From Rhodococcus sp. 1163 (GTDB lineage Bacteria > Actinomycetota > Actinomycetes > Mycobacteriales > Mycobacteriaceae), in contig NZ_MKKX01000038.1 of the NCBI RefSeq assembly GCF_002091985.1, positions 1-64,000 of the forward strand: a DNA stretch of 64,000 nucleotides, read 5' to 3'. The translations under genes were made by a program, and so were the position numbers. Below the pieces are notes generated by a model. The model had not been told where the DNA came from, ran no database searches, and was given only the letters and a program-made list of their open reading frames with translations. Below, one piece after another: positions 6,919 through 52,452 of the stretch (position 1 is the stretch's first letter; every line of letters starts with the position of its first letter).

Positions 6919-6925
6919 CTCGAAC

Positions 6926-7747: not shown

Positions 7748-7793
7748 GTCGGTCGTGGCGCCTACCCCTGAGTTCGCAGACCGCGAGCACAGG

Positions 7794-7799: not shown

Positions 7800-7807
7800 G
7801 TGTTCCC

Positions 7808-33732: not shown

Positions 33733-33733
33733 G

Positions 33734-34405: not shown

Positions 34406-34488
34406 TGTTGCCCATCGTGCTGCCGAAGCGGAAACGAACCGGCAAGATTACGGTGGACGGTATGGATTCGAGGAGAGGCGAGAATGCT

Positions 34489-35520
34489 ATGCGCATCGGA
34501 GTTCTGACCGGCGGTGGTGATTGCCCAGGTCTCAATGCGGTGATCAGAGCAGTGGTGCGCACTGCAGATGCGCGATACGGATCGACCGTCGTGGGATTTC
34601 AGGACGGATGGCGCGGCCTGCTCGAGAATCGGCGTGTCCAGCTTCGCAACGACGACCGCAACGATCGGCTGCTGACCAAGGGCGGCACGATGCTCGGAAC
34701 GGCGCGTACCAATCCCGATGTGCTTCGGGCCGGGCTCGACAGAATCAAGGAAACGCTCGAGGACAACGGAATCGATGTCCTCATCCCGATCGGTGGTGAG
34801 GGCACTTTGACTGCCGCACACTGGTTGTCGGAGGAAGGGGTACCCGTCGTCGGGGTGCCGAAGACCATCGACAACGACATCGACTGCACCGATGTCACAT
34901 TCGGGTTCGACACTGCTCTGACGATCGCCACCGACGCCATCGACCGTCTGCACAGCACCGCGGAGTCCCATCAGCGGGTCATGCTCGTGGAAGTAATGGG
35001 CCGTCACGCCGGCTGGATCGCGCTGCATGCAGGTCTCGCGTCGGGATCTCACATGACGCTGATCCCGGAGCATCCCTTCGATGTTGACGAGGTCTGCGAT
35101 TTGGTGCGTAAGCGCTTTCAGCGCGGTGATTCTCATTTCATCTGCGTCGTCGCCGAGGGCGCCAAGCCGAAAGAAGGATCGATGTCGTTGCTCGACGGCG
35201 GCATCGACGAGTTCGGACACGTCAAGTTCACCGGAGTTGCCCACCAACTGGGCCAGGAGATCGAGCGTCGGATCAACAAGGAAGTGCGCACCACGGTCCT
35301 GGGTCATGTCCAGCGCGGCGGCACACCCACTCCATATGACCGGGTGCTGGCGACAAGATTCGGGGTCAATGCAGTCGACGCTGCTCATGCGGGCGATTTC
35401 GGTCAGATGGTATCGGCGCGTGGCACCGAAATCGGTCTGGTATCGCTTGCCGAGGCGGTCAAGCAACTCAAACGAGTGCCCGAGAGTCGGTACATCGATG
35501 CAGCGGCGTTCTTCGGATAG
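34489..35520 (+). CDS. pfkA: 6-phosphofructokinase
   Basis: 343 aa, equal to mycobacterial PfkA. Motifs: [14 protein letters not shown] (residue 7), IGGEGTL (about 102) and PKTIDNDID (about 124). The Gly in GGEGT with Lys in PKTID is the actinobacterial group III pattern, which from established work on this family goes with ATP rather than pyrophosphate. The ATG at 34489 is preceded by AGGAGAGG at 10 nt; ATG 34462 is possible. It would phosphorylate fructose-6-phosphate in glycolysis. Confidence 0.95.
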
Positions 35521-35600
35521 AGCACCGCCTGTTCGTGTTCATACCTCACCGTCCGATCCCGATCGGCACCCGTGGTTACTCGCACGATGTTCCGAGCGCA

Positions 35601-35606
35601 TAAACT
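35601..35606 (+). promoter_or_regulatory. -10 box (TAAACT) for gatB
   Basis: TAAACT ends 7 nt before the ATG at 35614 and supports that start as leaderless. Confidence 0.45.
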
Positions 35607-35613
35607 CCTGTCC

Positions 35614-37119
35614 ATGACTGCTGCCATGGTCGATCTGATCGATTACGACGACGTGCTGACCCGTTTCGACCCCGTACTGGGTATGGAGGTTCACGTCGAG
35701 TTGGGCACAGCCACCAAGATGTTCTGTGGATGCCCGACGGCGTTCGGCGCCGAGCCGAACACTCAGGTGTGCCCGGTGTGCCTGAGTCTTCCGGGCGCGT
35801 TACCCGTCGTGAACGAGGCGGCCGTGGAATCTGCGATCCGCATCGGGCTGGCCTTGAACTGTTCGATCACGCCGTGGGGAAGATTCGCGCGCAAGAACTA
35901 CTTCTACCCCGATCAGCCCAAGAACTATCAGATCTCCCAGTACGACGAGCCGATCGCGACCGAGGGCTACCTCGACGTGTTGCTCGACGACGGCAGCACC
36001 TTCCGCGTCGAGATCGAGCGTGCTCATATGGAAGAGGACACCGGAAAGTCAACTCACGTCGGCGGCGCCACCGGCCGGATCGAAGGGGCGAGTCACTCGC
36101 TGCTCGATTACAACCGTGCCGGAGTTCCGCTGGTCGAAATAGTCACCAAGACCATCACCGGCACCGGCGCCCGTGCACCAGAGGTCGCTCGCGCGTACGT
36201 GACTGCGCTGCGCGATCTGCTGAAGTCGCTCGAGGTGTCGGACGTCCGGATGGATCAGGGCTCACTACGTTGTGATGCCAACGTGTCTTTGATGGAGAAG
36301 ACAGCAACCGAGTTCGGTACGCGTACCGAGACCAAGAACGTCAACTCCCTCAAGAGCGTGGAGGTGGCGGTCCGCTACGAGATGCGCCGTCAGGCCGCCG
36401 TGCTTGTCGCTGGCGGCGAGATCACCCAGGAAACGCGTCACTTCCAGGAAGTGGACGGCACGACGACCAAGGGTCGCAAGAAGGAGACCGCCGAGGACTA
36501 CCGGTATTTCCCGGAGCCGGACTTGGCGCCCGTTGCGCCCGACGCTGCGTGGATCGAGGAACTGCGCGGCACACTTCCAGAGTTGCCGTGGTTGCGCCGA
36601 GCACGGATCCAGGCCGACTGGGGCGTCTCCGACGAAGAGATGCGAGACCTCGTCAACTCCGGCGCACTCGAACTTGTGGCTGCGACGGTCGACGCTGGTG
36701 CACCACCGCAGGCAGCGCGCTCGTGGTGGGTCTCATACCTGAGCCAACAGGCCAACATCGCCGGCATCGAATTGGGCGCACTCGCGATCACACCCGCTCA
36801 GGTGGCCGAGGTTGCCGCACTGGTCGAAGACGGCAAGGTCAACAACAACGGTGCTCGTCAGATCGTCGACGGTGTCCTCGCCGGTGAAGGTGAACCCGCG
36901 GCAGTCATGGCTGCCCGCGGCCTCGTCGTGGAGAAGGACGAGGGGAAGCTCCAGGCCGCGGTGGATGAGGCTCTGGCAGCGAATCCCGGTGTCGCGGAGA
37001 AGATCCGCAGCGGAAAGGTGCAGGCCGCTGGTGCAATCGTCGGTGCTGTCATGAAAGCTACTCGCGGACAAGCCGATGCGGCTCGGGTGAAGGAACTGGT
37101 ACTTCAAGCTTGTAGCTGA
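35614..37119 (+). CDS. gatB: Asp-tRNA(Asn)/Glu-tRNA(Gln) amidotransferase subunit B
   Basis: 501 aa. [18 protein letters not shown] opens the kinase-like cradle domain with zinc cysteines (CGC and VCPVCL), then [37 protein letters not shown], and the YqeY-like C-terminal tail. It activates and amidates Asp/Glu on misacylated tRNA together with GatCA. The ATG at 35614 is supported by its -10 box. The stop is 14 nt before the antiporter. Confidence 0.96.
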
Positions 37120-37121
37120 GT

Positions 37122-37127
37122 TAGAGT
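37122..37127 (+). promoter_or_regulatory. -10 box (TAGAGT) for the antiporter gene
   Basis: TAGAGT ends 6 nt before the ATG at 37134. It overlaps the region immediately after the gatB stop. Confidence 0.4.
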
Positions 37128-37133
37128 CGGTTC

Positions 37134-38348
37134 ATGCCGTCGGCGGGAGCATCCCTTTTCTGGATCTCACTGATCGCGGTGCTCGCGCCGCTCGTGGCAG
37201 GGTTCGTGCCGCGTCGGTTACTGCCGGAAGTCGTTCTTCTGTTGGTGTTCGGAATGCTGGTGGGGCCGAACGTTCTCGGTCTCGCAGTCGACGGCGCCGA
37301 AGTGGACTTACTGCGCGAGCTCGGCCTCGGCATGCTTTTTCTCCTCGCAGGTTTCGAGATCGACGTCTCGGAAATCACCGGGCGCGGGGGCCGTCGAGCG
37401 CTGGTCACATGGCTGGTCAGTCTGGCGGCAGCATTCGGAGCGGTATTTCTGCTCGGGCAATCCGGTATGGCCACCGCGGAGATCGCGGTGGCCATCGCAT
37501 TGACCTCGACGGCTCTCGGAACCTTGCTGCCGATCCTCAAGGACAGTGGTCTACAGAACACACCGCTCGGACGCACTGTGATCAATCACGGAGCGATCGG
37601 CGAGCTCGGTCCGGTGATCGCGATGGCCGTCCTGCTCGGTTCACGCGGAGACGTGAAGTCGATCGTGATTCTCGCGCTGTTCGTCGCTGCAGCCGTCGCC
37701 GTCGGCTTCGTCCCAGCGCGATTGCTTCGCGAAGGCTCCGATCTATTGGCGGTGATTCGTCGAGGTGCCGGCACCACCGCACAGACGACGGTCCGCCTTA
37801 CGATGTTGCTGCTGATCACGCTGATCGCCATCGCTACGATCTTCGGGCTCGACATCATTCTCGGTGCCTTTGCCGCCGGGTTCATTCTGCGGCGGGTCGT
37901 ACCGAGCGGCGATGAACAACTCGAGACCAAACTCGAGGGCTTGGCGTTCGGGTTCCTGATCCCGGTCTTCTTCGTGACCTCAGGGATGTCGATCGACATC
38001 GGTGCTGTGCTCGCGGAGCCTGGAATTCTCCTTGCGTTTCTGGCTCTTCTCGTCCTGATTCGGGGTGTTCCGGTATTCATCGCAACCAGGTTGGATCGAC
38101 AGGAAAAGTTCACCACCCGCGAGCAGTTCCGCGTCGCGCTCTACGCGACAACCGGCCTCCCACTCATCGTCGCGGTCACCGGTGTAGCGGTCGACGCGGG
38201 GGAGATGTCCACGGCCAGTGCCTCGATACTCGTTGCTGCAGGCGCGATTACAGTGTTGGTGCTCCCACTGGTCGCAACCCTCCTCGCCTCGGATCCTCCG
38301 AAGCTCGACCAGTCACCTCACGAGGTACACCCAGGAGAACCCTCCTGA
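37134..38348 (+). CDS. Kef-type cation:proton antiporter (CPA2)
   Basis: 404 aa with 11-12 hydrophobic helices. Family features include GLGMLFLLAGFEIDVSEI (about residue 63), ALTSTALGTLLPILKDSG, and VFFVTSGMSIDIGAV. There is no C-terminal RCK/TrkA domain, so it is a transporter-only type. The predicted role is Na+ or K+ exchange for protons at the membrane. The tail is short and polar. Confidence 0.9.
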   Translation: MPSAGASLFWISLIAVLAPLVAGFVPRRLLPEVVLLLVFGMLVGPNVLGLAVDGAEVDLLRELGLGMLFLLAGFEIDVSEITGRGGRRALVTWLVSLAAAFGAVFLLGQSGMATAEIAVAIALTSTALGTLLPILKDSGLQNTPLGRTVINHGAIGELGPVIAMAVLLGSRGDVKSIVILALFVAAAVAVGFVPARLLREGSDLLAVIRRGAGTTAQTTVRLTMLLLITLIAIATIFGLDIILGAFAAGFILRRVVPSGDEQLETKLEGLAFGFLIPVFFVTSGMSIDIGAVLAEPGILLAFLALLVLIRGVPVFIATRLDRQEKFTTREQFRVALYATTGLPLIVAVTGVAVDAGEMSTASASILVAAGAITVLVLPLVATLLASDPPKLDQSPHEVHPGEPS

Positions 38349-38415
38349 CGCCATCGACGCGGGCGGCGTCGGCGGACAGCGAGGCCGGATCCAGAATGTC
38401 TGCCGAGGCCTTCAT

Positions 38416-39012: not shown

Positions 39013-39628
39013 GGGATTACCTTGCCCTCGAGATTACTCGGTTCGTGGCCGACACCGTCCGGTCAGGGATCTTCTTTCGGTGTCTCACCGAAGCACCGCC
39101 TCAGAACCAGACGAATCTGGGACGGATCCGCTTTTCGGGCAGCTACCGAGTGCGGCTTCGGTCATTTTCTTCGTTCATCGAGAGCTGCGTCGCCGAGATC
39201 CGCAGCGGCCTTCAACTCGAGACCCCGATGCGGTTCGCGCAACGCCTCGATCGCCGAGGTCCGGTTCGTTGTCGATTCGATCGCAGACTCCATGCCCATC
39301 GCTGACCGATCTCACTGTCGAGCAACCGCACGAGCTTCGACATCCCAACCCCCTTGGTCATCCCAGCACAACATCAACGAAGTGTCTCAACAGACTCGAG
39401 GACACCCGCAGTGGTAGGCCATCGTCCCACTGACCTTGTGCGGTCGTAGCTTTCGTAAGTACTCGCTGGTCGATCGCGGTCGATATCGGCCTCGAGACGA
39501 ATTGTTTCCGCTGTCGCATGCCGTTCCTGCAAACAGAACCCAAGCCAATACCGTTGCAGTCCAGGCCAAGTCGAACGCCAGCGGCACGGTGGGGTCGATG
39601 GGGACGTACTCCGTCCGACAGCGGGATT
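39013..39628. other. 616-bp stretch without a convincing gene
   Basis: No frame is clearly coding. Two small minus-strand open frames are noted. 39387-39587 has one hydrophobic segment near its N-terminus and starts 42 nt after the epimerase stop, so it could be a small membrane protein. 39162-39299 is 45 codons of coding-like composition (MGMESAIEST...) and lies just past a short frame with a good AAGGGGG ribosome-binding site in another phase, as a frameshifted remnant would. Neither has a family match I can name. Confidence 0.3.
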
Positions 39629-40540
39629 CTAGGAGTTCGCCAGCACCGTTTCCACCAGTTTCTCAGCTGCCCGGGTGCAGTCGTTGCGGGTGTAGTCCAG
39701 TAGGCGCATGTCTTCGGCTCCGGGTTCGTATGCGAGTGTATTTCCGCGTCCCTGGATGATGGCGGCGTCCGGTAGCAGCGGGTGCGCCTCGTCGCGTTCG
39801 GCGATGATGCGTGTGCTGCCGGCAGCGTCGACGAGCATCTGGAAGAACTGCTGATAGGAGAGATTCTGGTCGCCTATCAGGTATGCCGCGCCAGGAACGG
39901 CATTGCGTAGAGCTCCCCAAATCGCCTCGGCCAAAGAGTCGACAGACATGTAGTTCGTGCCGCCGGTAGGGGCGAAGTCCGGGATGTCCGGTTCATTTCC
40001 GGCTGCCCACGACACCATCCGTCGGTACCGCGCTGTCGATGCGCCCGGCATGACACCGATGATCGATGGCGGGTTGAGGGTGGAGACGACGAATGATTCG
40101 TCCGCAAGAGCGCGGGCCCCTTCGTCGGCAGCCTTTCGGGCGGCGATGTAGGGGTTGTCCGCGGCAAGCTCGGGTCGAAGATGGTGATAGTAGCTACCCA
40201 CTTGGACGAACCGTTTGACACCAGCTTGCTTTGCGAGCGCGGCGAAGCGTGGGACGCCGACGCTTTGAGTCTCCTCCCAGAAGCGTCGGTCGTCGCTGTT
40301 CGCCGGTTTGTGCCGCACGTCTTGACCCGCGGCGAAGACGATGCCGTCGAAGACCGAGAGCTGATCTGCGGTGAAGGTGGGGACTGTGTAATCACCCGCG
40401 AGGAGCGGGAACTCAGCCGCGGGCGAGTTTTCCGATAGCGGCCCACGGGCCGCCACTGTGACGTCGTTACCGCTTCGGCGTAGGTGGAGGGCGGTGTGCG
40501 CGCCGATCATGCCGGTGCCGCCGATAACCAGGATCTTCAT
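39629..40540 (-). CDS. NAD(P)-dependent epimerase/dehydratase (extended SDR)
   Basis: 303 aa. The nucleotide-binding motif is GGTGMIGAH (residue 7). An SDR Tyr-x3-Lys-like site is not obvious: YYHHLRPE is the closest, so it may be an atypical SDR. The C-terminal half has TNYMSVDSLAEAIWGAL, common in isoflavone-reductase/epimerase-like proteins. It follows the interrupted SDR gene by 27 nt on the same strand with AAAGG upstream, so both were probably one operon controlled by the IclR protein. The substrate is unknown. Confidence 0.8.
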   Translation of the reverse strand: MKILVIGGTGMIGAHTALHLRRSGNDVTVAARGPLSENSPAAEFPLLAGDYTVPTFTADQLSVFDGIVFAAGQDVRHKPANSDDRRFWEETQSVGVPRFAALAKQAGVKRFVQVGSYYHHLRPELAADNPYIAARKAADEGARALADESFVVSTLNPPSIIGVMPGASTARYRRMVSWAAGNEPDIPDFAPTGGTNYMSVDSLAEAIWGALRNAVPGAAYLIGDQNLSYQQFFQMLVDAAGSTRIIAERDEAHPLLPDAAIIQGRGNTLAYEPGAEDMRLLDYTRNDCTRAAEKLVETVLANS

Positions 40541-40567
40541 CGTGAGGTGCCTTTCGAAGGGGTGGGT

Positions 40568-41041
40568 TCAGGGATTACGCGGACGGTTGGTCCACCCGCC
40601 GGAATGACGCGGCACCCAGCCGCCTGCAGCGTGGGTGCCGCCGTCGACGTGCACAGTGCCGCCGGTGACGAAACGGGACAGTGAGGAGGCGAGGAACAGG
40701 GCCACACCCGCGACGTCGTCCGGCCGACCGGGACCGCCGAGCGGTGACCAGGTGGGCCAGAGCGACTGGTCTTCTTCGGGCACGAGCGTCGCGTAGGGAA
40801 CCTGGATCGACTCGATGAGATCCGGAGCGATCGCGTTGACTCTGATCCCGGACGGCCCGACTTCCGCGGCCAACGACCGAGTGAACTGCGTGAGCGCGGC
40901 CTTGTACGCGGAGTAGACGGTCTGACCCGGAATCGCTCGGTGGGATTCGACCGTCGTGACGTTGATTATCGAGCCGCCCCCGCCTTCGATCATGCCGGGA
41001 AGCAGCGCGTGCGTGAGGCGGAGGATGTGCGCGAAGTTGAT
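40568..41041 (-). pseudogene. C-terminal half of a split short-chain dehydrogenase
   Basis: The frame starts at the element junction with INFAHILRL and ends after 157 residues. It contains the catalytic YSAYK (Tyr-x3-Lys) with a preceding Ser region (NVTTVES), SGIRVNAIAPDL and the C-terminal FVTGGTVHVDGGTH, all SDR hallmarks. It lacks the Rossmann GxxxGxG half, which is found at 49944-50291 on the same strand 8.9 kb away. Bases 41041 and 49944 join in frame (GAA GAC ATC AAC). Local internal starts (for example ATG 40993) could still make a fragment, but without cofactor binding it would be inactive. Confidence 0.92.
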
Positions 41042-41042
41042 T

Positions 41043-41052
41043 TATCTTCACC
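41043..41052 (+). repeat. Left terminal inverted repeat of the Tn554-like element
   Basis: TATCTTCACC, the inverted partner of 49933-49942. It directly abuts the C-terminal SDR half. Confidence 0.65.
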
Positions 41053-41151
41053 CCCACCGCAGGAGTCTGTCACGTCGCAGGAGCGTCGGCGTGTCGGCTT
41101 GGTTTGGTCGTGAACGAATGGTTGCCTACACCCGTACGGGAGGTGGGTGTC

Positions 41152-42366
41152 ATGGCTCGGACGCAGAAGGTGGTACTGCCGGACGGCGGGGTGACCTGGA
41201 CTGTCCTCGACCATGATTACGCAGTGGTGGACCCTGTCGAGGAATGGCTGGAGTGGCTTCGCGTCGCGTGCGCTTTCAGCCCCAACACTGTGAAGGCATA
41301 CTCCCGCGGGCTCGCGTTGTGGTGGCACTACCTCGAGCAGACCGGCGTCGACTGGCGCGATCCTGGACTGACCGCTCTGAGCGGATTCATCGGCTGGCTC
41401 GCCGGCGGGAATCTCCCCACCACTCGCCTATCTCCGGCCAAGCCCACCACCTGCGGACCGCGCACAGTGTCACTACGCTTAGCGGCACTGGCCTCGTTCT
41501 ACGAATGGTCCGAACGCCAATACGGCACGGTGGCACCACGATTGGGACGTGCGAGACGCGAGCCGGAGTTCCAATCGTTCTTGGCGCACCTGCGGAACAG
41601 GCGTCGCGATCGACCCGCCGTACTCGTTCCGCGCCGCCGCTGGCACACCGGTCCGACACCGGTGTTCCTGCCGGTGCATGTGCAACGGATCTTCGATACC
41701 GCAGCGACATTCGATCCGGCCAACCGGTCGTGGACCGGGAATCTGCGTGACCGTTTACTGTTCGAAATACTCGCAGAGACCGGTCTTCGTCTCGGAGAAG
41801 CGTTGGGGCTGCGCCACGAGGACTGGATAGTCGGTCGCGGGTCCACGCCCTACATCGAGGTCGTACCTCGCGACGACAATTCCAACGGTGCCCGGGTGAA
41901 GAACCTGAAAGGTCGGCGTGTGTTCGTATCCGACCGGCTCGAGCGGCTGTACGGGGATTTCCTCTACGAGGTCGGCGATCTCGCCGACCGCCGCGGCTTA
42001 CCGCTTCGTGACACCGATCCCGTGCTGGTCAATACCGGTGGCGGGCAACTGCTGTCGGCGATGACACCGAGCGGTGTCTACCGGGTCGTCGAGAGGCTGC
42101 ACCGCCGCCTCGGGAACAGCGTCCCCACAGGCTGGACTCCGCACTGGTTCCGGCATACCCACGCCACCGCGCTACTTCTGAGCGGTGTCCCCGAACATGT
42201 CGTCATGCGCCGACTCGGTCATGCCCAGGTCCAGACCACCCTGGACCTCTACGGGTGGGTGACCGAAGAAGCCGAGCTGCGCAGCGTGGCGGAGTGGCGC
42301 AAGTACGCGCAAGGATGGGCACTGCCAGCGGTGCCCGGCTATGCAACGGAACCGGAGGTTCGATGA
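41152..42366 (+). CDS. Tyrosine recombinase, TnpA-type (Tn554 family)
   Basis: 404 aa. It has an N-terminal SAM-like core-binding domain (about residues 25-125). The catalytic domain has Arg213 (GLRLGE), a beta-hairpin Lys about 253, His331-x2-Arg334 (HWFRH), His357 and Tyr367 (TLDLYG): all catalytic residues are present, so it should be active. GGGAGGTG lies upstream of the ATG at 41152; an earlier start at 41104 is less likely. It overlaps the next gene by ATGA. Together with two downstream proteins it forms the Tn554-type transposition set. Confidence 0.93.
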   Translation: MARTQKVVLPDGGVTWTVLDHDYAVVDPVEEWLEWLRVACAFSPNTVKAYSRGLALWWHYLEQTGVDWRDPGLTALSGFIGWLAGGNLPTTRLSPAKPTTCGPRTVSLRLAALASFYEWSERQYGTVAPRLGRARREPEFQSFLAHLRNRRRDRPAVLVPRRRWHTGPTPVFLPVHVQRIFDTAATFDPANRSWTGNLRDRLLFEILAETGLRLGEALGLRHEDWIVGRGSTPYIEVVPRDDNSNGARVKNLKGRRVFVSDRLERLYGDFLYEVGDLADRRGLPLRDTDPVLVNTGGGQLLSAMTPSGVYRVVERLHRRLGNSVPTGWTPHWFRHTHATALLLSGVPEHVVMRRLGHAQVQTTLDLYGWVTEEAELRSVAEWRKYAQGWALPAVPGYATEPEVR

Positions 42367-44612
42367 AGTCTGCTGCGCTGCCGCTGCCCGAACACACACC
42401 GGCCGGGGTGACCGACCAGGACCTGTGGGAACTCGTACCTGAACATCTCAGGCCGGGAGCGACGCTCGACATGCTGGCCTGGCCGTGGCACGAGGTGATC
42501 TACCACTACGGAAGCCGAACTCACCGGTACGTCGCACTCGATGTTCCCGACCCGATCCGTCATGAATTCATCTGGTGGCTGTGGTCACTGCATGTCACCG
42601 GTGAACGGGTCGCGCCAGCCGCAGTCTCGGCGTGGATGCATCAGATCGCGCAGATCAGCACCTCGCGGGTCCAGCAAGGCCAGCCACCGATCGCCTCTGT
42701 CCTCGATCTGGACCTCGACACGTGGATCGCCGAAGCCCGATCAGCGTTCACCGCCCGCCACCAGCGGCTTCCGGGCGCACGGTTCAGCCAAAACCACCTG
42801 CAGATCATGCGCCGCCTGCGGCGGGCGGTCGGCATCGCCTACCACGAACAAGCATGGTGGCAGGCCGAGCTGTGGGACCCCTTCCATGACCCCCGAATAC
42901 CGGCGCGTCGACACGAACCGCGCGGTCAAGCCACCGTCGACTGGTCGAGTGTGGAACCGGACTGGCTGCGCGCGGCCGGGCAATGGTGGCTCGGAACCCT
43001 CATCAACGCCGACCGGATTCGGTGGGGCAGCGTAGGCCGATACCGGACCTCGTTGACTGCTCATTTCGGGCCGTTTCTGATCGAACGCGGCATCAACAGT
43101 CCTGTACTGGTCACTGACCCGGCGACGATGCTGCGCCCGTTCGCGAACGACTTCCTCGGATGGCTACGCACCCGCCGCGCCGCCAATGGACCCAACAAGG
43201 GTCAGCCGTTGTCCAACAAGACGATCTCCCTCACCCAGACGGCGGTGAACTCGATGTACGCCTTCTTCGTCGAACACCGCGACGAAGCAGCGTTCGTGCT
43301 CGGCGACCCGCGGTGGCGTGAGTTGACCGAACGCCACCTCGTGATGTGGCCGCGGGGAGAAACGATCTCGGTCAGGCGCTCCGACGACGCACCCGAATAC
43401 CTCGACGAACACGACCTCAGCCGCGTCACCGCACACCTGGATTTGATCGGTTTACCGGTATCGGAAAGCCGCACCATTGTGGTCGACGGGCGCGAGAGAG
43501 AAGTGTTCGGGCTCGGCGATCCGCAGGTCATGCGCGCCTATCTGCTGCTGATCCTCACCGGGCGGCGCGTCAACGAGATCCTGATGCTCGATCCGCAGCC
43601 GCTGAGCTCCCTACTCACGACACCCGGTCGACACTCCGATCCGCAGAACACCGAATCCGAAGCCCCAGTGTCGGAGTTCTTCGTGGCACGGCTGCGCTAC
43701 CAGCAAACCAAGATCGATGGGGCCCCGAACACGATCCCGGTCGAGCAGGCCGTAGTGAACATCATTCGCGAGCAAGAGGACTGGGTTCGCGACACCATCC
43801 TCCCGACGTTGACCGATGGCGCGGAACCGAAGTACCTCTTCCTCGCCCGCAAAAGCAACCAACGTGGCCAACGCCCCCTCGGCGGCATCAGGCAGCGACT
43901 GACCGACCTCGCCGCACTGATCGAGCTCCGCGACAAACACGGACGGCCCGTCGATTTCCAGCGCACCCACCGGCTGCGACATACCAAAGCCACTCAGATG
44001 CTCAATGCAGGCACACCACTGCACGTCGTGCAACGCTATCTCGGTCACGTCTCACCGGAGATGACGCTGCGCTACGCGAAAACACTCGCCAGCACTCACG
44101 AGGAAGAATTCCTGAGACTGACATTGATCGGCACCGACGGGCGTGACCACGACATCGACCAACACGCACTACTCGACGTCCTGCAACTCGATCAACGCAC
44201 CGACCGGATCCTGCCCAACGGCTACTGTCTGCTGCCGCGCCCGAAAACCTGCGAACGGGGCAACGCATGCCTCACCTGCGGCGAATTCGCCACCAACGCC
44301 ACCTACCAGACCGAACTCGAAGATCAACGGCACTCGACACTGCAACTGATCGAAACCCGACGCACACAACACTTCCAGCGCACCGGCAAGCACATGACCG
44401 ACGACAACATCTGGCTCAGCACCCGCCACAGCGAAGTCGCCGCACTAACCCTGATCATCGCCAACCTCACCGACGCTGACGGCGACGGCGACGAATCGAC
44501 CACAGTACAGGGAGCCGGAGTCGGCGGCCGAGATGCGATCCGCCGAGCATCAGAGCCGCGGACGCCGGTCGACCTGCCACTGGGACCGAGCCGGAAAGGA
44601 CATCGACTATGA
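42363..44612 (+). CDS. Large tyrosine recombinase, TnpB-type (Tn554 family)
   Basis: 749 aa, long for an integrase, as in TnpB of Tn554. The N-terminal 350 residues are DNA-binding/helical. The catalytic set is Arg401 (TGRRVNE), His537-x2-Arg540 (THRLRH), His562 (LGHV) and Tyr571 (LRYAKT). After it comes a cysteine cluster C622, C630, C636, C639 (a likely zinc-binding module) and a variable tail. It acts with TnpA in excision and integration. Coupled on both sides by ATGA overlaps. Confidence 0.92.
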   Translation: MKSAALPLPEHTPAGVTDQDLWELVPEHLRPGATLDMLAWPWHEVIYHYGSRTHRYVALDVPDPIRHEFIWWLWSLHVTGERVAPAAVSAWMHQIAQISTSRVQQGQPPIASVLDLDLDTWIAEARSAFTARHQRLPGARFSQNHLQIMRRLRRAVGIAYHEQAWWQAELWDPFHDPRIPARRHEPRGQATVDWSSVEPDWLRAAGQWWLGTLINADRIRWGSVGRYRTSLTAHFGPFLIERGINSPVLVTDPATMLRPFANDFLGWLRTRRAANGPNKGQPLSNKTISLTQTAVNSMYAFFVEHRDEAAFVLGDPRWRELTERHLVMWPRGETISVRRSDDAPEYLDEHDLSRVTAHLDLIGLPVSESRTIVVDGREREVFGLGDPQVMRAYLLLILTGRRVNEILMLDPQPLSSLLTTPGRHSDPQNTESEAPVSEFFVARLRYQQTKIDGAPNTIPVEQAVVNIIREQEDWVRDTILPTLTDGAEPKYLFLARKSNQRGQRPLGGIRQRLTDLAALIELRDKHGRPVDFQRTHRLRHTKATQMLNAGTPLHVVQRYLGHVSPEMTLRYAKTLASTHEEEFLRLTLIGTDGRDHDIDQHALLDVLQLDQRTDRILPNGYCLLPRPKTCERGNACLTCGEFATNATYQTELEDQRHSTLQLIETRRTQHFQRTGKHMTDDNIWLSTRHSEVAALTLIIANLTDADGDGDESTTVQGAGVGGRDAIRRASEPRTPVDLPLGPSRKGHRL

Positions 44613-45016
44613 CACTCGACGCCGAACAACGCAGCCAATTGCTCCGTCGATCCGCCGAAGCCCGTACTGCCGCCGCGTTCGAGAAGGCATCGAAAGCAAT
44701 TGCCGCACTGAACAAACGCGGGGAAGCGGTGAATTTCCGGAAGGTGGCACGCGAAGGCAACGTCAGCCTCGACTTTCTCTACCGCAACACCGAACTCCGA
44801 GAGACGATCACCCGCCTGCGCACCCGCAATCAACCAGCACCAGCCACGCCGGTCTCCCCGGACACGCACAGCACGATCGTGCTCAGCCTCACCCGCCAGC
44901 TAGGTGAAGCGAAAGCCGAAATAACCCGGCTGCATGCCGCGCTCGCCGCGGCGCACGGCGAGAACCTCGCACTACGCCGAACCACGACCACGCCCCGGTA
45001 CGAGCCTGCGACGTGA
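44609..45016 (+). CDS. TnpC-type accessory protein (DUF6262)
   Basis: 135 aa. The N-terminal half is helical with VNFRKVAREGNVSLDFLYRN, a helix-turn-helix-like region. The C-terminal half (LGEAKAEITRLHAAL...) is a heptad-rich coiled coil. This size, composition and position after two tyrosine recombinases are typical of TnpC, which in Tn554 influences orientation and efficiency of transposition. Starts ATGA-coupled to TnpB. Confidence 0.88.
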   Translation: MTLDAEQRSQLLRRSAEARTAAAFEKASKAIAALNKRGEAVNFRKVAREGNVSLDFLYRNTELRETITRLRTRNQPAPATPVSPDTHSTIVLSLTRQLGEAKAEITRLHAALAAAHGENLALRRTTTTPRYEPAT

Positions 45017-45216
45017 TTGGTGCGCCTCCCTTTGCTGTTGTGACTCTTCACTTCTCATGCTGCTCCGCGACCCCCGCTCACATATGGACGTAACCGATCT
45101 CGACCAGGCGTACGAACAAATCTCACCCAGGGCGCAGATGAGTTGTGTATGCAGTGCACACCTCGTTGCTGACGGAAGGCTGTTTTGCCGACCGTCGACA
45201 GGGAACTTGGCTGGGT

Positions 45217-46251
45217 ATGGTGGCAGCAGTTAGACCTTTAGCCAAAAACACAACGGTCGGTTTTAGTGGCAGAATATTCTGTGTGAAGGACCAACGTCGT
45301 TCCTGGCTACTCATCGATGCAATGGATCCGGAACAGCCCTGTGTGCTCGCCGTGGGTCAGTCTCAACGTTCAGCAAAGGCGCTCACCGCGGTCCTTCGGG
45401 GCCCTAACTGCAAGCGTGCATTGGATGCAGTCTCGAACGTCGCTAATCTGCGAACGGGTGCGTCGGAGGAGCAGCTGCCTCAGGATCTGGTGTTACGCGC
45501 CGAGCCGATTGTCGCCGAGGACGGACACGTCCCAGGGGTGTGGCTTGGCATCTTCGGACAGAGGGTGCCGCTCCCCGATCGGGGACCTGTGCTCGCTTTT
45601 CGGTGGAACGTCACGAAAGGCCTGACGGAAAGTGAGATTGGAGTTGCCGAACGTCTCCACATGGTCGACTACGGAACCGATGCGGGTGCAATTCTCAGCG
45701 TCCTTGCGGCACCGCGGTATGCGACAGGGTTCGACTCGGTAGTGCTCGACCGTAAGGAGATCCCACACCAGAGGTTTCGTGTTCGTGCACGCATCGACGA
45801 CGCGGTGGTCAGCGGACACGTCAGCAGTGGCAGTGGGAGCACTGACCGGTTCCTCTCCGGACTTTCAATTCCCCTGCCTGAACATGTCGACGGGCCAATT
45901 GACGGGCGAGAAAGTCTCGACGGTTTGGTTGCGCAAGCGAGTTCCAGAGTCGGCGTCCACCGTGCTGTGGTCAGGTCGCAAGATCTGGAACTGCTGCATT
46001 GGTACGACGAACCGCCCACCGGGACCGCTTGGCGGTACCGGGACCGAAAAGGTAAGAGCTTGTTCAATCCGATCGATATGACGTCACTCCCATCTGAAAC
46101 CCGCCCCGAGACGGCTATGCGACGTGGAACGGTGCGGCTTCTACATCAGAATGGGCAGTATCAAGCGTTTCACTGTGAATTGAAGCCAATCCCTGACGTC
46201 GAAAATGCTTCTCTCGCAACATTTACCGTAGTTCGCAGATCCGTGGCGTAG
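45217..46251 (+). CDS. DUF5593-like (PAS-like) protein, element cargo
   Basis: 344 aa. It resembles the actinobacterial DUF5593 family: SWLLIDAM near the start, then PGVWLGIFG and a FRWNVTKGLTE segment of a PAS-like fold, and a C-terminal domain ending with beta strands (ASLATFTVVRRS). Family function is unclear; some members are linked to signalling or stress. Start choice is uncertain: GTG 45145, ATG 45217 and GTG 45283 are all in frame, and the family pattern favours 45217 or 45283. It stands apart from the recombinase operon by about 200 nt and uses more A/T-rich third positions than the host genes. Confidence 0.6.
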   Translation: MVAAVRPLAKNTTVGFSGRIFCVKDQRRSWLLIDAMDPEQPCVLAVGQSQRSAKALTAVLRGPNCKRALDAVSNVANLRTGASEEQLPQDLVLRAEPIVAEDGHVPGVWLGIFGQRVPLPDRGPVLAFRWNVTKGLTESEIGVAERLHMVDYGTDAGAILSVLAAPRYATGFDSVVLDRKEIPHQRFRVRARIDDAVVSGHVSSGSGSTDRFLSGLSIPLPEHVDGPIDGRESLDGLVAQASSRVGVHRAVVRSQDLELLHWYDEPPTGTAWRYRDRKGKSLFNPIDMTSLPSETRPETAMRRGTVRLLHQNGQYQAFHCELKPIPDVENASLATFTVVRRSVA

Positions 46252-46442
46252 CGGATCGGTATCGGCTACTGTTCGAGATCTCTCGCACTTACCGAAATAC
46301 CCGGGTCATTCTTGTGGAGATCGGGATGGCCTTGACCGCCTAGTAACGCGTCGTTGCTATTTGCGCCTATGCCACACAGCCGGTTGTCTGCTGTCCCGGT
46401 TGCGACCACCTTTCATGTGTACGTCGATGCCGAAGAGGTTTC

Positions 46443-47648
46443 ATGTCCCAACGCCGACCATTCGGGGCGATTATTGCCCTGGTGTTGACCATGCAGGTCC
46501 TGAGTAGCGCAAATGCGTTCGCCCAACCTGTCGATACACCAGCCCCACTTGAGGTACCCGATTCGCCCACTGTGCCTGGGGAGCAGTTGCCGGGTCCCGC
46601 GCCAGCTCCGGAACAGCTTCCGACTCCCGATTCCGAAATCTTCGTTCGCAGTCTACCGATTGTCCAGGTCACCGATCCTGCTGAGATTCAACGGATCGGC
46701 GATTCAGCGATTCAGGAATCTGCGCAACAACAACGATCTGCGACCCCTATCCAGGGGTGCAACAACACCCGCTTCAAATCGTGTGGGGTGTACATCGCTC
46801 CAATCCTGCAGTACCGGAGGGGGACGGACGGCGTCGCGGTTCCTTTTGGAACGTTGAATGTGAACATCACCCTCGTCATGTCGTCGTCGGTCAACAACCG
46901 CCAATCCAATATCTTCGCGTACTTCGAGAGCGAGATCGAATGGGGAACACCGATAACAACAGGTACTTTCACCTTCACTCCTTCGAAAGTGGGACCTGAT
47001 GGAATCCAAGCTCCTATCGCCGAGATGCGTACGTTCAATCTGAATCCACCTGGGGTGATTTCGTACGAGCAATACCCCGAGTTCTCCAAGCTCACGACGA
47101 GCAGCATCGGCTGGTCGACGTACACGTTCGCCTGGACCTCCGTCATCGCAGGCACCATTCAGGAAGGTCCGCCGCCTGGAACGTTCTACACGGAGCAGCG
47201 GATCCGCTGCGACAGTACGGCAGCGTTCGGCGCAGCCGGATGCGTCAATCCGACAAACTATCCCACGGTCTACTACAACAAGGCTGTTATCCCGACTATT
47301 ACGCAACACGTTCTCGACCGTCAAGCCATAACCGGTGAGGGCCGCCCGTTCGGGTCGTCTCTCACACGGACGAACAAAGACGGAATCGACCTAAACCGCG
47401 ACATATCGTGCCCGGCCTCACAACTTCGACGGCTCGAACTGTTGGGAGAAAAGCCGGGACCGGACGAGATGGAGAATCCCTCGTGCGATGAGTACCCGCT
47501 CGCTTCCTCCGATCAGGGCGGGTCCGGGGCATCTGTTCGATGGGTTCCGTTGAAAGAAAACAATTCTCAAGGCGGAACGATGTCCCAATTCTATAAAGGA
47601 AACCGCGTGATGGTCGGTGACAACTTCTACGTCAATGCCTTCAACTGA
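46443..47648 (+). CDS. Secreted NucA/NucB-type deoxyribonuclease protein, element cargo
   Basis: 401 aa. A Sec signal peptide ends AFAQ (about residue 28), followed by a Pro-rich linker (about 30-60), a middle region of beta character with paired cysteines (GCNNTRFKSC and RCDSTAAFGAAGC), and a C-terminal NucA/NucB-like domain: DISCPAS, CDEYPLASSDQGG (C348-D-E-Y-P) and KENNSQGG (from 371) followed by GDNFYV. Those last motifs are the family's metal/active-site signature. It should act outside the cell. GAAGAGG lies 5 nt upstream of the ATG. Only the C-terminal domain is recognised. Confidence 0.75.
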   Translation: MSQRRPFGAIIALVLTMQVLSSANAFAQPVDTPAPLEVPDSPTVPGEQLPGPAPAPEQLPTPDSEIFVRSLPIVQVTDPAEIQRIGDSAIQESAQQQRSATPIQGCNNTRFKSCGVYIAPILQYRRGTDGVAVPFGTLNVNITLVMSSSVNNRQSNIFAYFESEIEWGTPITTGTFTFTPSKVGPDGIQAPIAEMRTFNLNPPGVISYEQYPEFSKLTTSSIGWSTYTFAWTSVIAGTIQEGPPPGTFYTEQRIRCDSTAAFGAAGCVNPTNYPTVYYNKAVIPTITQHVLDRQAITGEGRPFGSSLTRTNKDGIDLNRDISCPASQLRRLELLGEKPGPDEMENPSCDEYPLASSDQGGSGASVRWVPLKENNSQGGTMSQFYKGNRVMVGDNFYVNAFN

Positions 47649-47695
47649 CCGCCCAGTTTCAGTTCATTCCCTCCCGACCAGAAAGCAGAGTCATC

Positions 47696-48472
47696 ATGAA
47701 AGTACGTTCAGCACGTAAGGCCCTGGCAGTCGGCGCACTCTTGAGTGCAGCTGTAATCCTCGCACCAGGTACCGCAAATGCAGCCGCAGTGACCGGGTGG
47801 GTCGGTCCCGCGGGAAGCAACGGCGGCGGCATCCAGTTTTTGAACACCTCTACCATCATCAACTCACCCAACCTGACCGCACAGTCGAAGATCTACTCAG
47901 TCTTTGGCCAGACAGCCCCTCCAGGAGACATCGGCGTCCGCGCCCGCCTGTTCAAGAGCGGGGTCTTGTGCGAGGCGATCGACTATAAGTACAACGCATT
48001 CCCAGCGCCAGAGCTAACAGTCGGCACGACGAAGACCTGTGGTACCGGTTCGTACAACAGCCACGGATTCACCGCCGTGTGGAACGGCACCAGTGCCTAC
48101 CGGGAGGCCCTGACGTTCCCCAGCAACCCTCTCGACTGGACAGCTCCGGCCGCCCGATCGGCAGAACCCTCGACCGATAGCGGCGATACCGTCGCAGAAT
48201 CCGGCACGAACGATCAGGGCCAGACGTACGGACAAGGTGATGCCGCCAGCGACGCTGAGTTGCCCGACCTCGTCGCGGCGTTCGGAGATGATGGTACCGC
48301 TGGCTATATCGAGAAGTCTGCGCTTCAAAGCGCGGTAGCGTCGCCGGCGGAAGCGACAGCGCTAGAACGGCAGACCATCGGCGGCGTGGACGTCTACGGC
48401 TCTGCGCCCAGGACGGTGCCGGTCTTCGCCGAGGACGGCATGACGAAGATCAGTGACTTCACGATCTCCTGA
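47696..48472 (+). CDS. Secreted protein of unknown function, probable partner of the nuclease
   Basis: 258 aa. The signal peptide ends ANAAA (about residue 31). Residues about 34-140 form a beta-rich domain with one Cys pair, then an acidic Ser/Asp linker (about 150-190). The C-terminal part, AGYIEKSALQ...RTVPVFAEDGMTKISDFTIS, resembles the C-terminal motif of many small exported actinobacterial proteins. It lies 47 nt after the nuclease gene on the same strand, and a perfect hairpin follows. It may be an inhibitor or chaperone of the nuclease, but no sequence motif proves this. Confidence 0.65.
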   Translation: MKVRSARKALAVGALLSAAVILAPGTANAAAVTGWVGPAGSNGGGIQFLNTSTIINSPNLTAQSKIYSVFGQTAPPGDIGVRARLFKSGVLCEAIDYKYNAFPAPELTVGTTKTCGTGSYNSHGFTAVWNGTSAYREALTFPSNPLDWTAPAARSAEPSTDSGDTVAESGTNDQGQTYGQGDAASDAELPDLVAAFGDDGTAGYIEKSALQSAVASPAEATALERQTIGGVDVYGSAPRTVPVFAEDGMTKISDFTIS

Positions 48473-48477
48473 AGAAT

Positions 48478-48517
48478 CGACTCCTGCCGAGTGTGCGCGT
48501 GCACTCGGCAGGAGTCG
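48478..48517. terminator. Bidirectional terminator between convergent cargo genes
   Basis: CGACTCCTGCCGAGTG and CACTCGGCAGGAGTCG make a perfect 16-bp stem with an 8-nt loop, followed by TTGTCTT. It sits 5 nt after the secreted-partner stop and 5 nt before the DUF6924 stop on the other strand, so it can serve both. Confidence 0.85.
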
Positions 48518-48522
48518 TTGTC

Positions 48523-49341
48523 TTACTTACTTGCCTGCTGCTGTTCTGGGGTAGGCATACGTGTCATGAGGGCTGTTATGGGGGCCAGAGTGTCCGGGTC
48601 CAAGTACACACCCCACCTGCCGTACGAAATCGGCAGACCGAAGACCAGGGCCGATCCCCCATCGCGGGTGGCGTCGATTGTCTCGTCGAGTCCTAGAACT
48701 TCCTCAAACATCCAATAGTTGTCTCGTCCGGAAGCGTAGTACTCATGCGTCGCACGAAGATCCGGTGCCAGCTTTGCCTCCCACTCGCTGCGTGACTCTT
48801 TTTCGAGGTCGCTGCGGTACCGCGCAAGAATCGTCTCTGTCAGGTTGCCGTCTGCGGCCGCCTCGAGGAGGCGCTGTTTTGTCACTATGCGGGTGGTGGT
48901 CTGTGGTGAACCGAAACCGCGGAAGATGCCATCGCTGTCCGCGGCGTTCTGGTAGTCGGCGAAATCGAGATTGGCGATGGACAAGTTGTTCTCGACGTCT
49001 GCCAACACTGCCGGCATTACTCGAAACGCCGGCATCGGCTCACTGCCTCCGCTGTTGCGGAATTCGATTGCCAGAATGGGCATTTCGGAGCTTTCGAATG
49101 TTTGGCGGTCGGCGATGAACGCATAGGTCGGCGGGGGTGCTTGCAGGAGGCTGATCACCTCGGCCGGGGACGCGTTTTCGAACGACGTATCGTCGATCAA
49201 CGTCAACGTCGCCTGAACCTCAGTAGCGTCTGATTGCGTGTGGCTTTTCGACGCTGCGGCAACGATGTCGTCCCATGACCCCTGATCACCGAAATAGGTT
49301 CTGATCAATAATGATTCGCCCTCGTGCGCTATTTCGACCAT
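48523..49341 (-). CDS. DUF6924 domain protein, element cargo
   Basis: 272 aa. The N-terminal 150 residues match the DUF6924 pattern: LLIRTYFGDQGSWDDI near the start, TLIDDTSFENASPAEVISL, AFIADRQTF, ILAIEF, and VENNLSIANLDFADYQNAADSDGIFRGF at the end. The C-terminal 120 residues (YRSDLEKES...RWGVYLDP) are unassigned. The function is unknown. The chosen ATG is at 49341; the frame stays open to 49776 but the extra part does not look like one protein. It points toward the nuclease pair from the opposite strand. Confidence 0.65.
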   Translation of the reverse strand: MVEIAHEGESLLIRTYFGDQGSWDDIVAAASKSHTQSDATEVQATLTLIDDTSFENASPAEVISLLQAPPPTYAFIADRQTFESSEMPILAIEFRNSGGSEPMPAFRVMPAVLADVENNLSIANLDFADYQNAADSDGIFRGFGSPQTTTRIVTKQRLLEAAADGNLTETILARYRSDLEKESRSEWEAKLAPDLRATHEYYASGRDNYWMFEEVLGLDETIDATRDGGSALVFGLPISYGRWGVYLDPDTLAPITALMTRMPTPEQQQASK

Positions 49342-49932
49342 GGCCTCTACGTTACAAGACTCACTCCAATCGATGCAGGGAATGTAACCGTCGATCCGAC
49401 ATGACTTCTGACCTCTTGCGGACCTACCGTCCGCGCTGCTGCCAAGACCAAATCGGGCGATAGGACAGCGAGAAAGGCCGAGGTCGGAGGGAGCCTGGCC
49501 GGGGCCGACGCTCGATTTCTTAATATCGGTGCGGTTTACCGAACCGAATATGGCGGCGTGAGCAGGGGCCGCGGAGGTCGCGGGCATGTTGTCGAGTGTG
49601 TATCGGCGGGCCCGCGGTCTCGACGCTGCGAAGCGTGCATTCACGCAGGCGCGGTAGTCGTCGTCGTCTGACCCGTGAATCGCTACCGATGCCAGCGAGG
49701 TCAAGGCCGGGCGATCACATGGAGCAGGTAAAAGCCCGGCTCGTTCACGCAACTCTGCCGCCATGTCCTCCCACAAGGAAGGGGATGGGGCGAGCTCGCA
49801 CTCATGAACCCAGCCCGGAATTGAGTAGCGTTGTCACCGACGCTCCTCGATCTGAGAACCCGCAGTACGTAGTCGTCACAGAGATGCCTGTCAGGACGTA
49901 AGGTGCGTCTTCATCCCCCAAAACGACAGGCT
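49342..49932. other. Right-end region of the element, no firm gene
   Basis: About 590 bp. On the minus strand the frame that contains the DUF6924 gene stays open up to about 49834. Within it 49590-49834 reads like the end of a real protein (WEDMAAELRERAGLLP, then DDDDYRACVNARFAA, RRYTLDN), with GGGAGG near 49770. It has no start I trust and no family I recognise, so a truncated remnant is likely. No other coding signal was seen. Confidence 0.35.
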
Positions 49933-49942
49933 GGTGTAGATA
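49933..49942 (-). repeat. Right terminal inverted repeat of the Tn554-like element
   Basis: GGTGTAGATA on the plus strand, complementary to the left repeat at 41043-41052 with one mismatch. It abuts the N-terminal SDR half. Confidence 0.65.
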
Positions 49943-49943
49943 G

Positions 49944-50291
49944 GTCTTCCTCGTGCAGTTCGTCCCACAACGACGGCGCGTTCTCGACGAACGAGCCCTG
50001 TGGTTGCAGAAAATGGCCGACATTGTTCACCAGCACGTCGGGGTTGAATCGGCAAACGTCGGGAAGGACGGAGGACTCGCGAACGTCCCAGTCGAGTGCG
50101 GTGAGGGAGCCCCCTGCCTCTGCATCGAATTCGAGCGACCCGAGCTGAGTGTTGTCCACGACAAGGACATCGGCGCCGTGGGAAGCGAAGGTGCGTGCGA
50201 TCGCGGCTCCGATACCTCCTGCTCCACCGGTGACCACGGCGCGACGGCCGGCCAGCATCGTGCTGGAGGGGAATGGCTGCGGATTTGGCAT
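49944..50291 (-). pseudogene. N-terminal half of the split short-chain dehydrogenase
   Basis: 116 codons from ATG 50291 to the element boundary. It carries the SDR cofactor motif TGGAGGIG (about residue 21), an adenine-binding Asp (VVDNTQ) and NNVGH (NNAG-like). Without the element the next codon would be ATC of the C-terminal half. As it stands, the ribosome continues into the element for a few residues and stops at 49911. The promoter lies divergent to the IclR gene, so expression is probably IclR-controlled. Confidence 0.93.
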
Positions 50292-50444
50292 AACTCTGAT
50301 TACAAGGGATCGCCTCTAGGAGTACCAGGTGAATTCCCGCTCGATGGAAGAATCCGCATTCGCAGTCGCTCAGGGTGCTATCACTGAAGGCTGCGGCAGT
50401 TATGAGCGTCTTTCGCTGTTCGCGCACAACGAAACGGAGAGCGC

Positions 50445-51215
50445 ATGCAACCCCACGGCTCGGATGAGCCTCCGACTGGTGTCCTACGACGCGCAGCGCG
50501 AATCCTCGACACCTTCGAAGCTCAGGCAGGTGGGTTGGCGGGCGGACTGAACCTGACACAGGTTGTTGCGGCCACCGGGCTGCCGGTTTCCTCGGTCCAC
50601 CGGGCATTGGAGCAGATGGTGTCCCTTCGGTGGCTGCATCGTCAGGGCATGGAGTATCGCCTCGGCATGCGTCTGACCGAACTCGGCTCCGCGGCGGCGG
50701 ATGCCGATGCGCTTCGACAAGCTGCGCTGCCAAGTCTGCGGTGGCTGCACCACAACACCGGATTCGTCGTCCACCTGGGCGTACTCGATGGCACGGACGT
50801 GGTCTATCTGGAGAAGATCGGTGGAGAATCGATTCCGGACATCCAGTCACGGGTGGGAAGCCGAATGCCCGCACATTCTTCTACGATCGGAAAGGCGCTG
50901 TTGGCGCTCGACAGGACGGTCGATGCGGAGAGATCGGAGATCGACCAGGTGCGCGAGTCGCGCATCGCCTACGCACGGGAACGATGCATAAAGGGGTTCA
51001 GCTGTGTTGCGGCGCCGATCGGTCCGCAGAGGTGGGGTGACGCGGCCGCGATCTCGGTTTTCGGCGCGACAGCACGGGTCGACACCGATGAACAACTACG
51101 AATGTCGTTGCAGGCGGCTGCTGCCGACATCTGGCGCCGATTGAATACGCAGAGATCGCCGATGAAAGCGAGCGTCCTCGATGCCCGCGCACCTCGATGT
51201 GGACTGCCGCGTTGA
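50445..51215 (+). CDS. IclR-family transcriptional regulator
   Basis: 256 aa. Winged helix-turn-helix at about residues 15-75 (NLTQVVAATGLPVSSVHRALEQM), then the IclR effector domain with LEKIGGESIPDIQSRVGSRMPAHSSTIGKALLAL. It is divergent from the interrupted SDR gene across 153 bp and so very likely regulates that SDR/epimerase operon. The ATG at 50445 is preceded by GGAGAG. Effector and target are unknown. Confidence 0.9.
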   Translation: MQPHGSDEPPTGVLRRAARILDTFEAQAGGLAGGLNLTQVVAATGLPVSSVHRALEQMVSLRWLHRQGMEYRLGMRLTELGSAAADADALRQAALPSLRWLHHNTGFVVHLGVLDGTDVVYLEKIGGESIPDIQSRVGSRMPAHSSTIGKALLALDRTVDAERSEIDQVRESRIAYARERCIKGFSCVAAPIGPQRWGDAAAISVFGATARVDTDEQLRMSLQAAAADIWRRLNTQRSPMKASVLDARAPRCGLPR

Positions 51216-51323
51216 GCAGTGCGCGCAGAGTCGGTCCAGCCCACCAGATCGAACTGCCATAGGTTGCGGCACGATCTGGTGGGCGCGGACCAACGATGCC
51301 GCATTTTCCGGATGTGGCTCCGC

Positions 51324-51548
51324 TCAGACGAGATCGCCGAAACGCCCCTCTACGGTGGCCGCTCTGATCGACGCACGCATGGAATCGCACCCGCGAGTGA
51401 GCGACGCGACATCGTCTCGATCCGCGAACGGCGCCAATACCGGGCAGCTCGCCACCGCGTCCGCGGTCCATTGCACCGAGGTGTGTTCCCAGCTGAACTT
51501 CTCCGCGAGCACGCAGACCCCACACTCGCTGCACTGTATGGATTGCAT
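51324..51548 (-). CDS. Small Cys-containing protein, Rieske-oxygenase associated (ferredoxin-like?)
   Basis: 74 aa. The N-terminus is CSECGVCVLAEKFSWEHTSVQWT with a C-x2-C-x2-C cluster, then a later Cys in SCPVLAP and one in RGCDS, enough to suggest metal binding. It starts 4 nt after the KshA-fragment stop, so it belonged to that operon. I do not know a named family; a ferredoxin-like electron carrier or chaperone is possible but not proven. The opposing plus-strand frame here is not convincing. Confidence 0.6.
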   Translation of the reverse strand: MQSIQCSECGVCVLAEKFSWEHTSVQWTADAVASCPVLAPFADRDDVASLTRGCDSMRASIRAATVEGRFGDLV

Positions 51549-51552
51549 CGAC

Positions 51553-52335
51553 TCAGCCCTGCACTGCCGCGCGGCGGGCGAGGTTCTCCTCGACCTCCTG
51601 TTTCCATGACTCCACCGGCCTGGTGGTGTCGAGCTCGAACTCGAACCGGTCGGTCATGTCCGGGGTGATGTCTGCGACATCGACGTAGAACTGTTCGTAC
51701 CAGCGACGCAATTGGTAGACCGGGCCGTCCTGCTCGCACAACAGTGGGTTGTCTATGCGCGTTTTGGTTCGCCAGATCTCGACATCCTGCTCGAAACCTT
51801 TGCTGATGAACATGCTCATCCCATCGGCAAGTTTCTCCGCGGCGTCCACCGCTAGATGTTGGGAAGACTCGACGATCACCCCGTAAGTCAGCACGAAGGA
51901 GTTGGCGTCGATCGGGTAGTGGCAATTGAGCAGGACAGCGTCCACGTCGAAACCCTCGTAGTGGTAGGTCAACTCGGTGATCATGAAGGCTGGGCCGTAG
52001 TAGGCGGCAGCAGACGAGTTGCCGAGCACCTGTGGTTCGCCAGGCTGAGCGGGGCGTCGGACATCCTGGCGCGCAACACCGTTCATGTATTGAGCAGCGG
52101 CATGGCCCTCGAAGACGTTGCGGAAGAACGTCGGGAAGGATCCGTGGACGTAGAAGAAGTGCGCCATGTCGACGTTGTTGTCGATGAGTTCGCGGACGTT
52201 CGTATGCACGATCGTCTGTTTGAAGCCCTTCCAGTCCGTCCAGTCGTCGGCCAGCACACCGGGGATGCGCGGTGGCTGCACTTCAGCCGGTGGCGGGTCG
52301 GAAAGTCGATGAGTCAGGCGATGCTGGTGGTACAC
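51553..52335 (-). pseudogene. kshA: 3-ketosteroid 9-alpha-monooxygenase oxygenase subunit, N-terminally truncated
   Basis: 260 residues of the C-terminal catalytic half of KshA: DNNVDMAHFFYVHGSFP with the mononuclear-iron D-x2-H-x4-H motif, NVFEGHAAAQYMNG, and a normal C-terminus. The N-terminal Rieske domain (C-x-H...C-x2-H) is missing. Upstream of the internal GTG at 52335 the frame meets a stop (TGA) after a few codons, and another short frame ends over the same place. The protein could not receive electrons by the usual route. It probably marks a recombination scar in a steroid- or cyclic-compound-catabolic region. Confidence 0.8.
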
Positions 52336-52452
52336 GCCCAGAACAGATCGTCGTCATGTTGGTAGGACTGTTGAGGGCGCCATTCGTCACACCACTCGAG
52401 GATCTGAAAACGTGACTGGGATCTGCCGCACCCACCGCTGCGCCTCGGAGTC

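Follow-up and report, generated by a model that had tools for sequence, protein, structure and literature searches.

The locus analyzed here raises the question of whether an SDR gene that is split by a Tn554-related element can be switched off and on by excision of that element or is broken for good. In the window, i.e., the whole stretch of 64,000 nucleotides from Rhodococcus sp. 1163 that was analyzed, two minus-strand SDR pieces, 49944-50291 (348 bp) and 40568-41041 (474 bp), are 8902 bp apart, and joining them at 41041/49944 gives an open frame of 273 residues plus a stop codon. These coordinates were correctly described in the initial annotation, which regarded the join as a base-precise restoration of the frame and proposed a recent, potentially reversible insertion. 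Each of the two pieces matches SDR models. However, the frame across 41041/49944 is open only because the excess length is a multiple of three, and a join gains little support from an open frame.

The joined protein was compared with intact relatives. An SDR search gave matches in 66 of 301 genomes, and those fetched as loci (L004-L033) were aligned together with the paralogue in the window's own genome (L002; n = 31). Residues 115-116 of the joined protein, which are coded by 49944-49949, are missing from all 31 intact relatives in the protein alignment. For this reason, 49944-49949 is regarded as foreign and not as part of the SDR gene; the count of six bases derives from the protein alignment, and its exact register could shift through chance similarity. 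Thus, the joined 273-residue protein is two residues too long compared with intact relatives, and the claim of base-precise restoration does not hold. Solved structures (149 sequences matched) have the same two-residue gap in two of the three alignments shown, while the gap in the third lies ∼8 residues later. The N-terminal part of the SDR comprises 49950-50291 (minus strand, 114 codons), which matches SDR models and is colinear with the 31 relatives up to 49950; the C-terminal part comprises 40568-41041 (minus strand, 157 codons plus stop), as supported by an SDR model match and the relatives' alignment. At the other junction, the SDR Ile-Asn codons at 41036-41041 (gttgat on the plus strand) represent the target core; their Asn, taken to be the catalytic one in the SDR tetrad, is kept in all 31 relatives, where it is preceded by I or V. 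The foreign core at 49944-49949 (gtcttc on the plus strand) agrees with the target core at two of six positions. Based on these alignments, the insert consists of an element of 8902 bp together with a foreign 6-bp core at its tnpA-distal end, the target core being retained at the tnpA-proximal end, and the true empty site would be 41041/49950 rather than 41041/49944.

The element itself spans 41042-49943 on the plus strand. Its ends, TATCTTCACC and TATCTACACC, agree at nine of 10 positions, in line with the imperfect 10-bp inverted repeats described previously; the terminal repeats are TTATCTTCACC (41042-41052, plus strand) and CTATCTACACC (read inward; 49933-49943, minus strand). While the right end was placed by the inverted repeat together with the relatives' alignment, the left end is fixed independently because three related elements start at 41042, 41042, and 41044. 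These are the elements in Rhodococcus sp. 1168 (G116; 97.3% identical over 41042-46343), Rhodococcus sp. KRD197 (G299; 86% over 41042-45014), and G145 (79% over 41044-44983). The matches end beyond tnpC or the Rv3651-like gene, and further cargo varies. A left-end pattern derived from these copies occurs five times in four of 301 family genomes (twice in G299 and once each in the window's genome, G116, and G145). TnpA is 83-98% identical to that of the G116, G299, and G145 copies, 40-53% identical to other family members found, and less than 60% identical to each of the 401 matching plasmid records; TnpB shares 32% identity across 236 residues with a plasmid gene that carries the annotation 'Tn554 family transposase B'. 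A search of the window's own genome for a second close copy gave weak other matches only. A phage or plasmid vehicle was rejected, there being no phage match, no relative on a viral contig, and no plasmid DNA match.

Two adjacent tyrosine recombinase genes, one of ordinary length and one long (420 and 773-785 residues), are followed by a small third gene. tnpA (41104-42366, plus strand; Phage_integrase, 3.5e-19) encodes R229, H347, R350, H373, and Y383, and tnpB (42255-44612, plus strand; Phage_integrase, 1.5e-13) encodes R425, H560, R563, H586, and Y595, as numbered from 42291; both start codons are provisional. The tnpC-like gene (44609-45016, plus strand) overlaps tnpB by 4 bp and encodes a 135-residue DUF6262 protein (7e-09), identified by domain match. 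Accordingly, of the proposed TnpA-TnpB-TnpC trio with intact catalytic residues, the Arg, His-x-x-Arg, His, and Tyr residues of TnpA and TnpB are confirmed, and the third gene stands as a DUF6262 match. In 23 family loci (L065, L066, L068-L087, and L090), TnpB has all five catalytic positions in 23/23, and TnpA has four in 23/23 and the first Arg in 22/23; this count omits L067, with its genes in several pieces, L103, the duplicates L088/L089, and the fragment L091.

The cargo consists of ORFs for an Rv3651-like protein (45145-46251, plus strand), which lies inside the 97.3% match to the G116 element, a NucA/NucB DNase domain protein (46443-47648, plus strand; 6.4e-18), a protein without a Pfam match (47696-48472, plus strand), and a DUF6924 protein (48523-49776, minus strand; 1.3e-37). 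PADLOC gave no match to defence genes in these four ORFs, and no resistance gene is among the cargo matches. By eye, the NucA/NucB-domain protein and the product of the following ORF (46443-48472) have a signal-peptide-like start, and a perfect 16-bp inverted repeat at 48478-48517, between two convergent cargo ORFs, resembles a terminator. Among related elements, we noticed that those at L071 16027-17669 and L072 11839-13481 seemingly occupy homologous targets in opposite orientation, with ∼4 kb between tnpA and tnpB in L072. Elements of another subfamily at L073 ∼3893-7935 and L103 ∼3742-5175 have 13-bp perfect inverted repeats at their outermost ends, which differ in sequence between the two.

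A second insertion allowed a comparison with an uninterrupted site. The left flank (1802 bp) and the right flank (1504 bp) of the KRD197 element (L066) are both 100% identical to an uninterrupted stretch of G303 (L120), and the two matches overlap by six bases; the net gain is 7118 bp. With the ends read as TTATC and GATTA, this gain resolves into an element of 7112 bp and a tnpA-distal GTATTC, the target core GAATTC being retained at the tnpA-proximal end. A right end at GGTGTGGATAA, 8071 bp from the left end, was ruled out by this mapping. The actual right end, TAATCTGGATCC (read inward), has little in common with that of the window element beyond TNATC. KRD197 also has a second, truncated copy (L091 ∼9933-10234) consisting of the left end and approximately the first 80 residues of tnpA. 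Because GAATTC and GTATTC differ at one base, the KRD197 insertion alone is ambiguous and could be read as a mutated target-site duplication. The idea that the extra 6 bp are generally a duplication, or a random small insertion, and not a core brought in by the element nevertheless appears very unlikely to us, as the two cores in the window agree at only two of six positions and the extra bases have the same length and lie on the same side in both insertions. From these comparisons, the anatomy of the KRD197 insertion is consistent with that of the window, and one clear and one consistent actinobacterial insertion carry the footprint.

How does this footprint compare with those of known systems? 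The Tn554-related class was defined in 2012 and is reported from Rhodococcus, Mycobacterium, and Streptomyces; its actinobacterial members combine an ordinary and an abnormally long tyrosine recombinase, often with a TnpC-type partner (PMC3414803). The window has two such recombinases and a tnpC-like third gene; the cargo beyond the transposition genes differs among copies. Tn554 and Tn552-II of Staphylococcus share with the window, whose third gene is tnpC-like, the tnpABC order and a right-end core that comes from the donor (PMC12486829); they differ in having a core of 7 bp rather than 6 bp and a different target, and no resistance gene is among the window's cargo matches. The strand-biased circularizing integrative elements (SEs) have, like the window element, a 6-bp footprint with the target core on the intA-proximal side and the brought-in core at the other end. 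However, SEs are described as having four core genes, one of which, Tfp, lies between the recombinase genes, and the window element lacks a counterpart of Tfp because there is no gene between tnpA and tnpB. RIT elements likewise have three adjacent genes for DNA rearrangement; all three are described as recombinases with a catalytic Tyr, whereas the third gene of the window element encodes the DUF6262 protein, which has no recombinase match. The arrangement typical of Tn554, i.e., the target core tnpA-proximal and a foreign 6-7-bp core tnpA-distal, is found in the window, and KRD197 is consistent with it. We conclude that the window element is a further member of the known Tn554-related class. 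Among the literature matches listed, which are a narrow base for claiming absence, there is no report of this footprint in actinobacterial elements.

The insertion site in the SDR gene shows little resemblance to the target arm of the other copies. The four other left junctions, two of which are from one genome, have 14-22 of 26 arm positions in common pairwise, while the SDR site has 6-11 of 26 in common with them. In both orientations, the SDR site scores like random positions, with 10-31% of 6000 random positions scoring as well, which speaks against a usual target; from these few sequences, we take the gene as no more than a likely secondary target of the element. By eye, the sp. 1168 element is located near the 3' end of a gene for what looks like a photolyase relative. 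The tnpA-proximal (left) core of this element recurs in three of the seven empty sites shown (L130, which is in the window's own genome, L131, and L133); in the other four, three of which are more diverged, the core differs or the alignment is short. The right end of this copy was not found on its contig. The predicted donor, with the left core gtcttc, was not found among the five left ends seen (0/5).

The interrupted gene is itself embedded in DNA of limited distribution. An NAD-dependent epimerase gene (39629-40540, minus strand) lies just downstream of the SDR gene and adjoins it in relatives, suggesting a shared transcription unit, and a divergent gene for an IclR-type regulator (50445-51215, plus strand) adjoins the SDR gene in six relatives. 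We compared the flanks in the window with thirteen stretches, comprising twelve SDR loci and one transposon locus (L103). The IclR, SDR, and epimerase genes lie side by side and uninterrupted in six genomes of other genera (L093-L098), whereas they are apart in L099, an IclR match is absent in L100-L102, and neither neighbor is present in L105. In L104 (9774-10214; G098), the SDR gene beside the IclR gene is without its N-terminal part, a sign that the gene can be dispensable. Over 33000-38374, the backbone shares 94% identity with four sister species. Three of these (L137-L139) lack both 39604-51193 and 51229-52452, two stretches separated by a 35-bp match (51194-51228); the stretch fetched from the fourth (L140) is consistent with this (76-bp match), its left side being partly covered. 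Among 37 genus genomes, the IclR gene is matched at full length only in the window's own genome, and the others have matches to short IclR pieces or the KshA region only. Among the genomes compared, these flanks thus mark a species-specific SDR locus with the transposon nested inside it. The same genome also has an intact SDR gene (63% identity) beside an epimerase gene on contig C20. KshA usually carries an N-terminal Rieske part; 51553-52335 encodes a 260-residue protein with a KshA-type C-terminal domain, apparently without this part. The surrounding stretch (51229-52452), which is missing from the three sister species, is also absent in the fourth as far as fetched.

The initial annotation considered the insertion recent. 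The SDR halves have no internal stop codon, and a change is seen at only one of the 82 positions that do not vary among the other 31 sequences; accordingly, the insertion need not be old, and the claim stands in this weaker form. We also considered two other readings of the halves, as separate functional genes or as an old pseudogene. The N-terminal half is unusually diverged, with 62-69% identity to eight relatives that are 76-94% identical among themselves (83-89% versus 86-97% for the C-terminal half), and its pN/pS is 0.36-0.43 compared with 0.25-0.30 for the whole SDR. The latter is slightly raised relative to the 0.17-0.24 in four pairs of relatives. Against six relatives, dN is 0.14-0.17 and dS 0.76-0.99 for the SDR gene, compared with 0.16-0.20 and 1.04-1.69 for the epimerase gene. 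However, the split interrupts a motif shared by all 31 relatives. Five of these relatives have N-half end branches longer than that of the window, and the trees place both halves in the same region, although this placement is weakly supported. Moreover, in a closer set of 16, three of 123 invariant positions are changed in the window SDR, and other members reach three to five. Alongside the 1/82 changed positions, these data make separate genes or an old pseudogene highly improbable. On the same weakly supported tree placement, we also rejected a chimera in which the element joins two SDR alleles. The relatives' alignment and the shared left ends support the original proposal that a Tn554-related element interrupts one SDR gene.

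Can this interruption be reversed? Precise excision was presented as a known property of the Tn554 family. According to PMC10214605, SEs leave six target bases beside one end, bring bases from the donor's left flank to the other, and circularize while the donor site stays occupied; the 6-bp footprint is shared by Tn554-related elements, and the Tn554 empty site had not yet been evaluated, so this study does not bear out that property. For Tn552-II, an 'att-brought-in' rule and a single-strand route have been proposed, and circles mainly have the left core, with a minority carrying the other core (PMC12486829). By sequence, the window footprint matches this published footprint of Tn552-II/Tn554 and SEs. 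At a probability of roughly 0.8, our reading is that a Tn554-related transposon entered the Ile-Asn codon pair of the SDR gene and brought a foreign core along, and that strand-biased copying keeps the gene interrupted. According to this model, the foreign core would derive from the left flank of the site that the element occupied before, the recombinases would exchange one strand first to give a circle with the left core, and this circle would then be copied, so that the SDR gene stays interrupted when the element moves. The last two steps follow published relatives, the copying route being modeled on Staphylococcus and Vibrio elements.

The alternative that precise double-stranded excision restores the gene and turns it on and off draws on the three open transposition genes with their recombinase residues, on SDR halves without an internal stop and with few odd changes, and on the fact that either leftover core would preserve the frame. 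Nevertheless, we consider it unlikely. The foreign core is at the tnpA-distal end as in the published footprint, SEs leave no empty donor site, and Tn552-II circles are biased toward the left core; reversibility is therefore not supported. An excision event could leave either core behind and would preserve the frame in both cases, but the conserved Asn would be kept in only one of the two products; the 273-residue join holds both cores and equals neither product. In addition, neither the split SDR gene nor this insertion is present in any of the other 300 family genomes searched (one genome per species), and nothing therefore points to a maintained switch. Relatives with an intact SDR gene exist, the nearest 79% identical, and a near-identical empty site was not seen among them. 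Altogether, under the strand-biased copying that we favor, the SDR gene is most likely inactive, and its disruption is probably permanent and not part of an on/off switch.

Thus, the attractive reading of this locus as a reversible gene switch is corrected, and the comparison with intact relatives instead exposes the 6-bp fingerprint of this transposon class. Its occurrence in actinobacterial elements makes the copy-out question testable in another phylum. More tentatively, and with considerable doubt, we speculate that the actinobacterial Tn554 branch moves by strand-biased copy-out/copy-in, that the 6-bp fingerprint is heritable and records the previous home of the element, and that a rare double-strand excision could swap the Asn for a donor-derived residue in frame. 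If so, the next circle would carry the SDR Ile-Asn codons to the next site, and a rare excision would be an active-site change and not a clean on/off switch.
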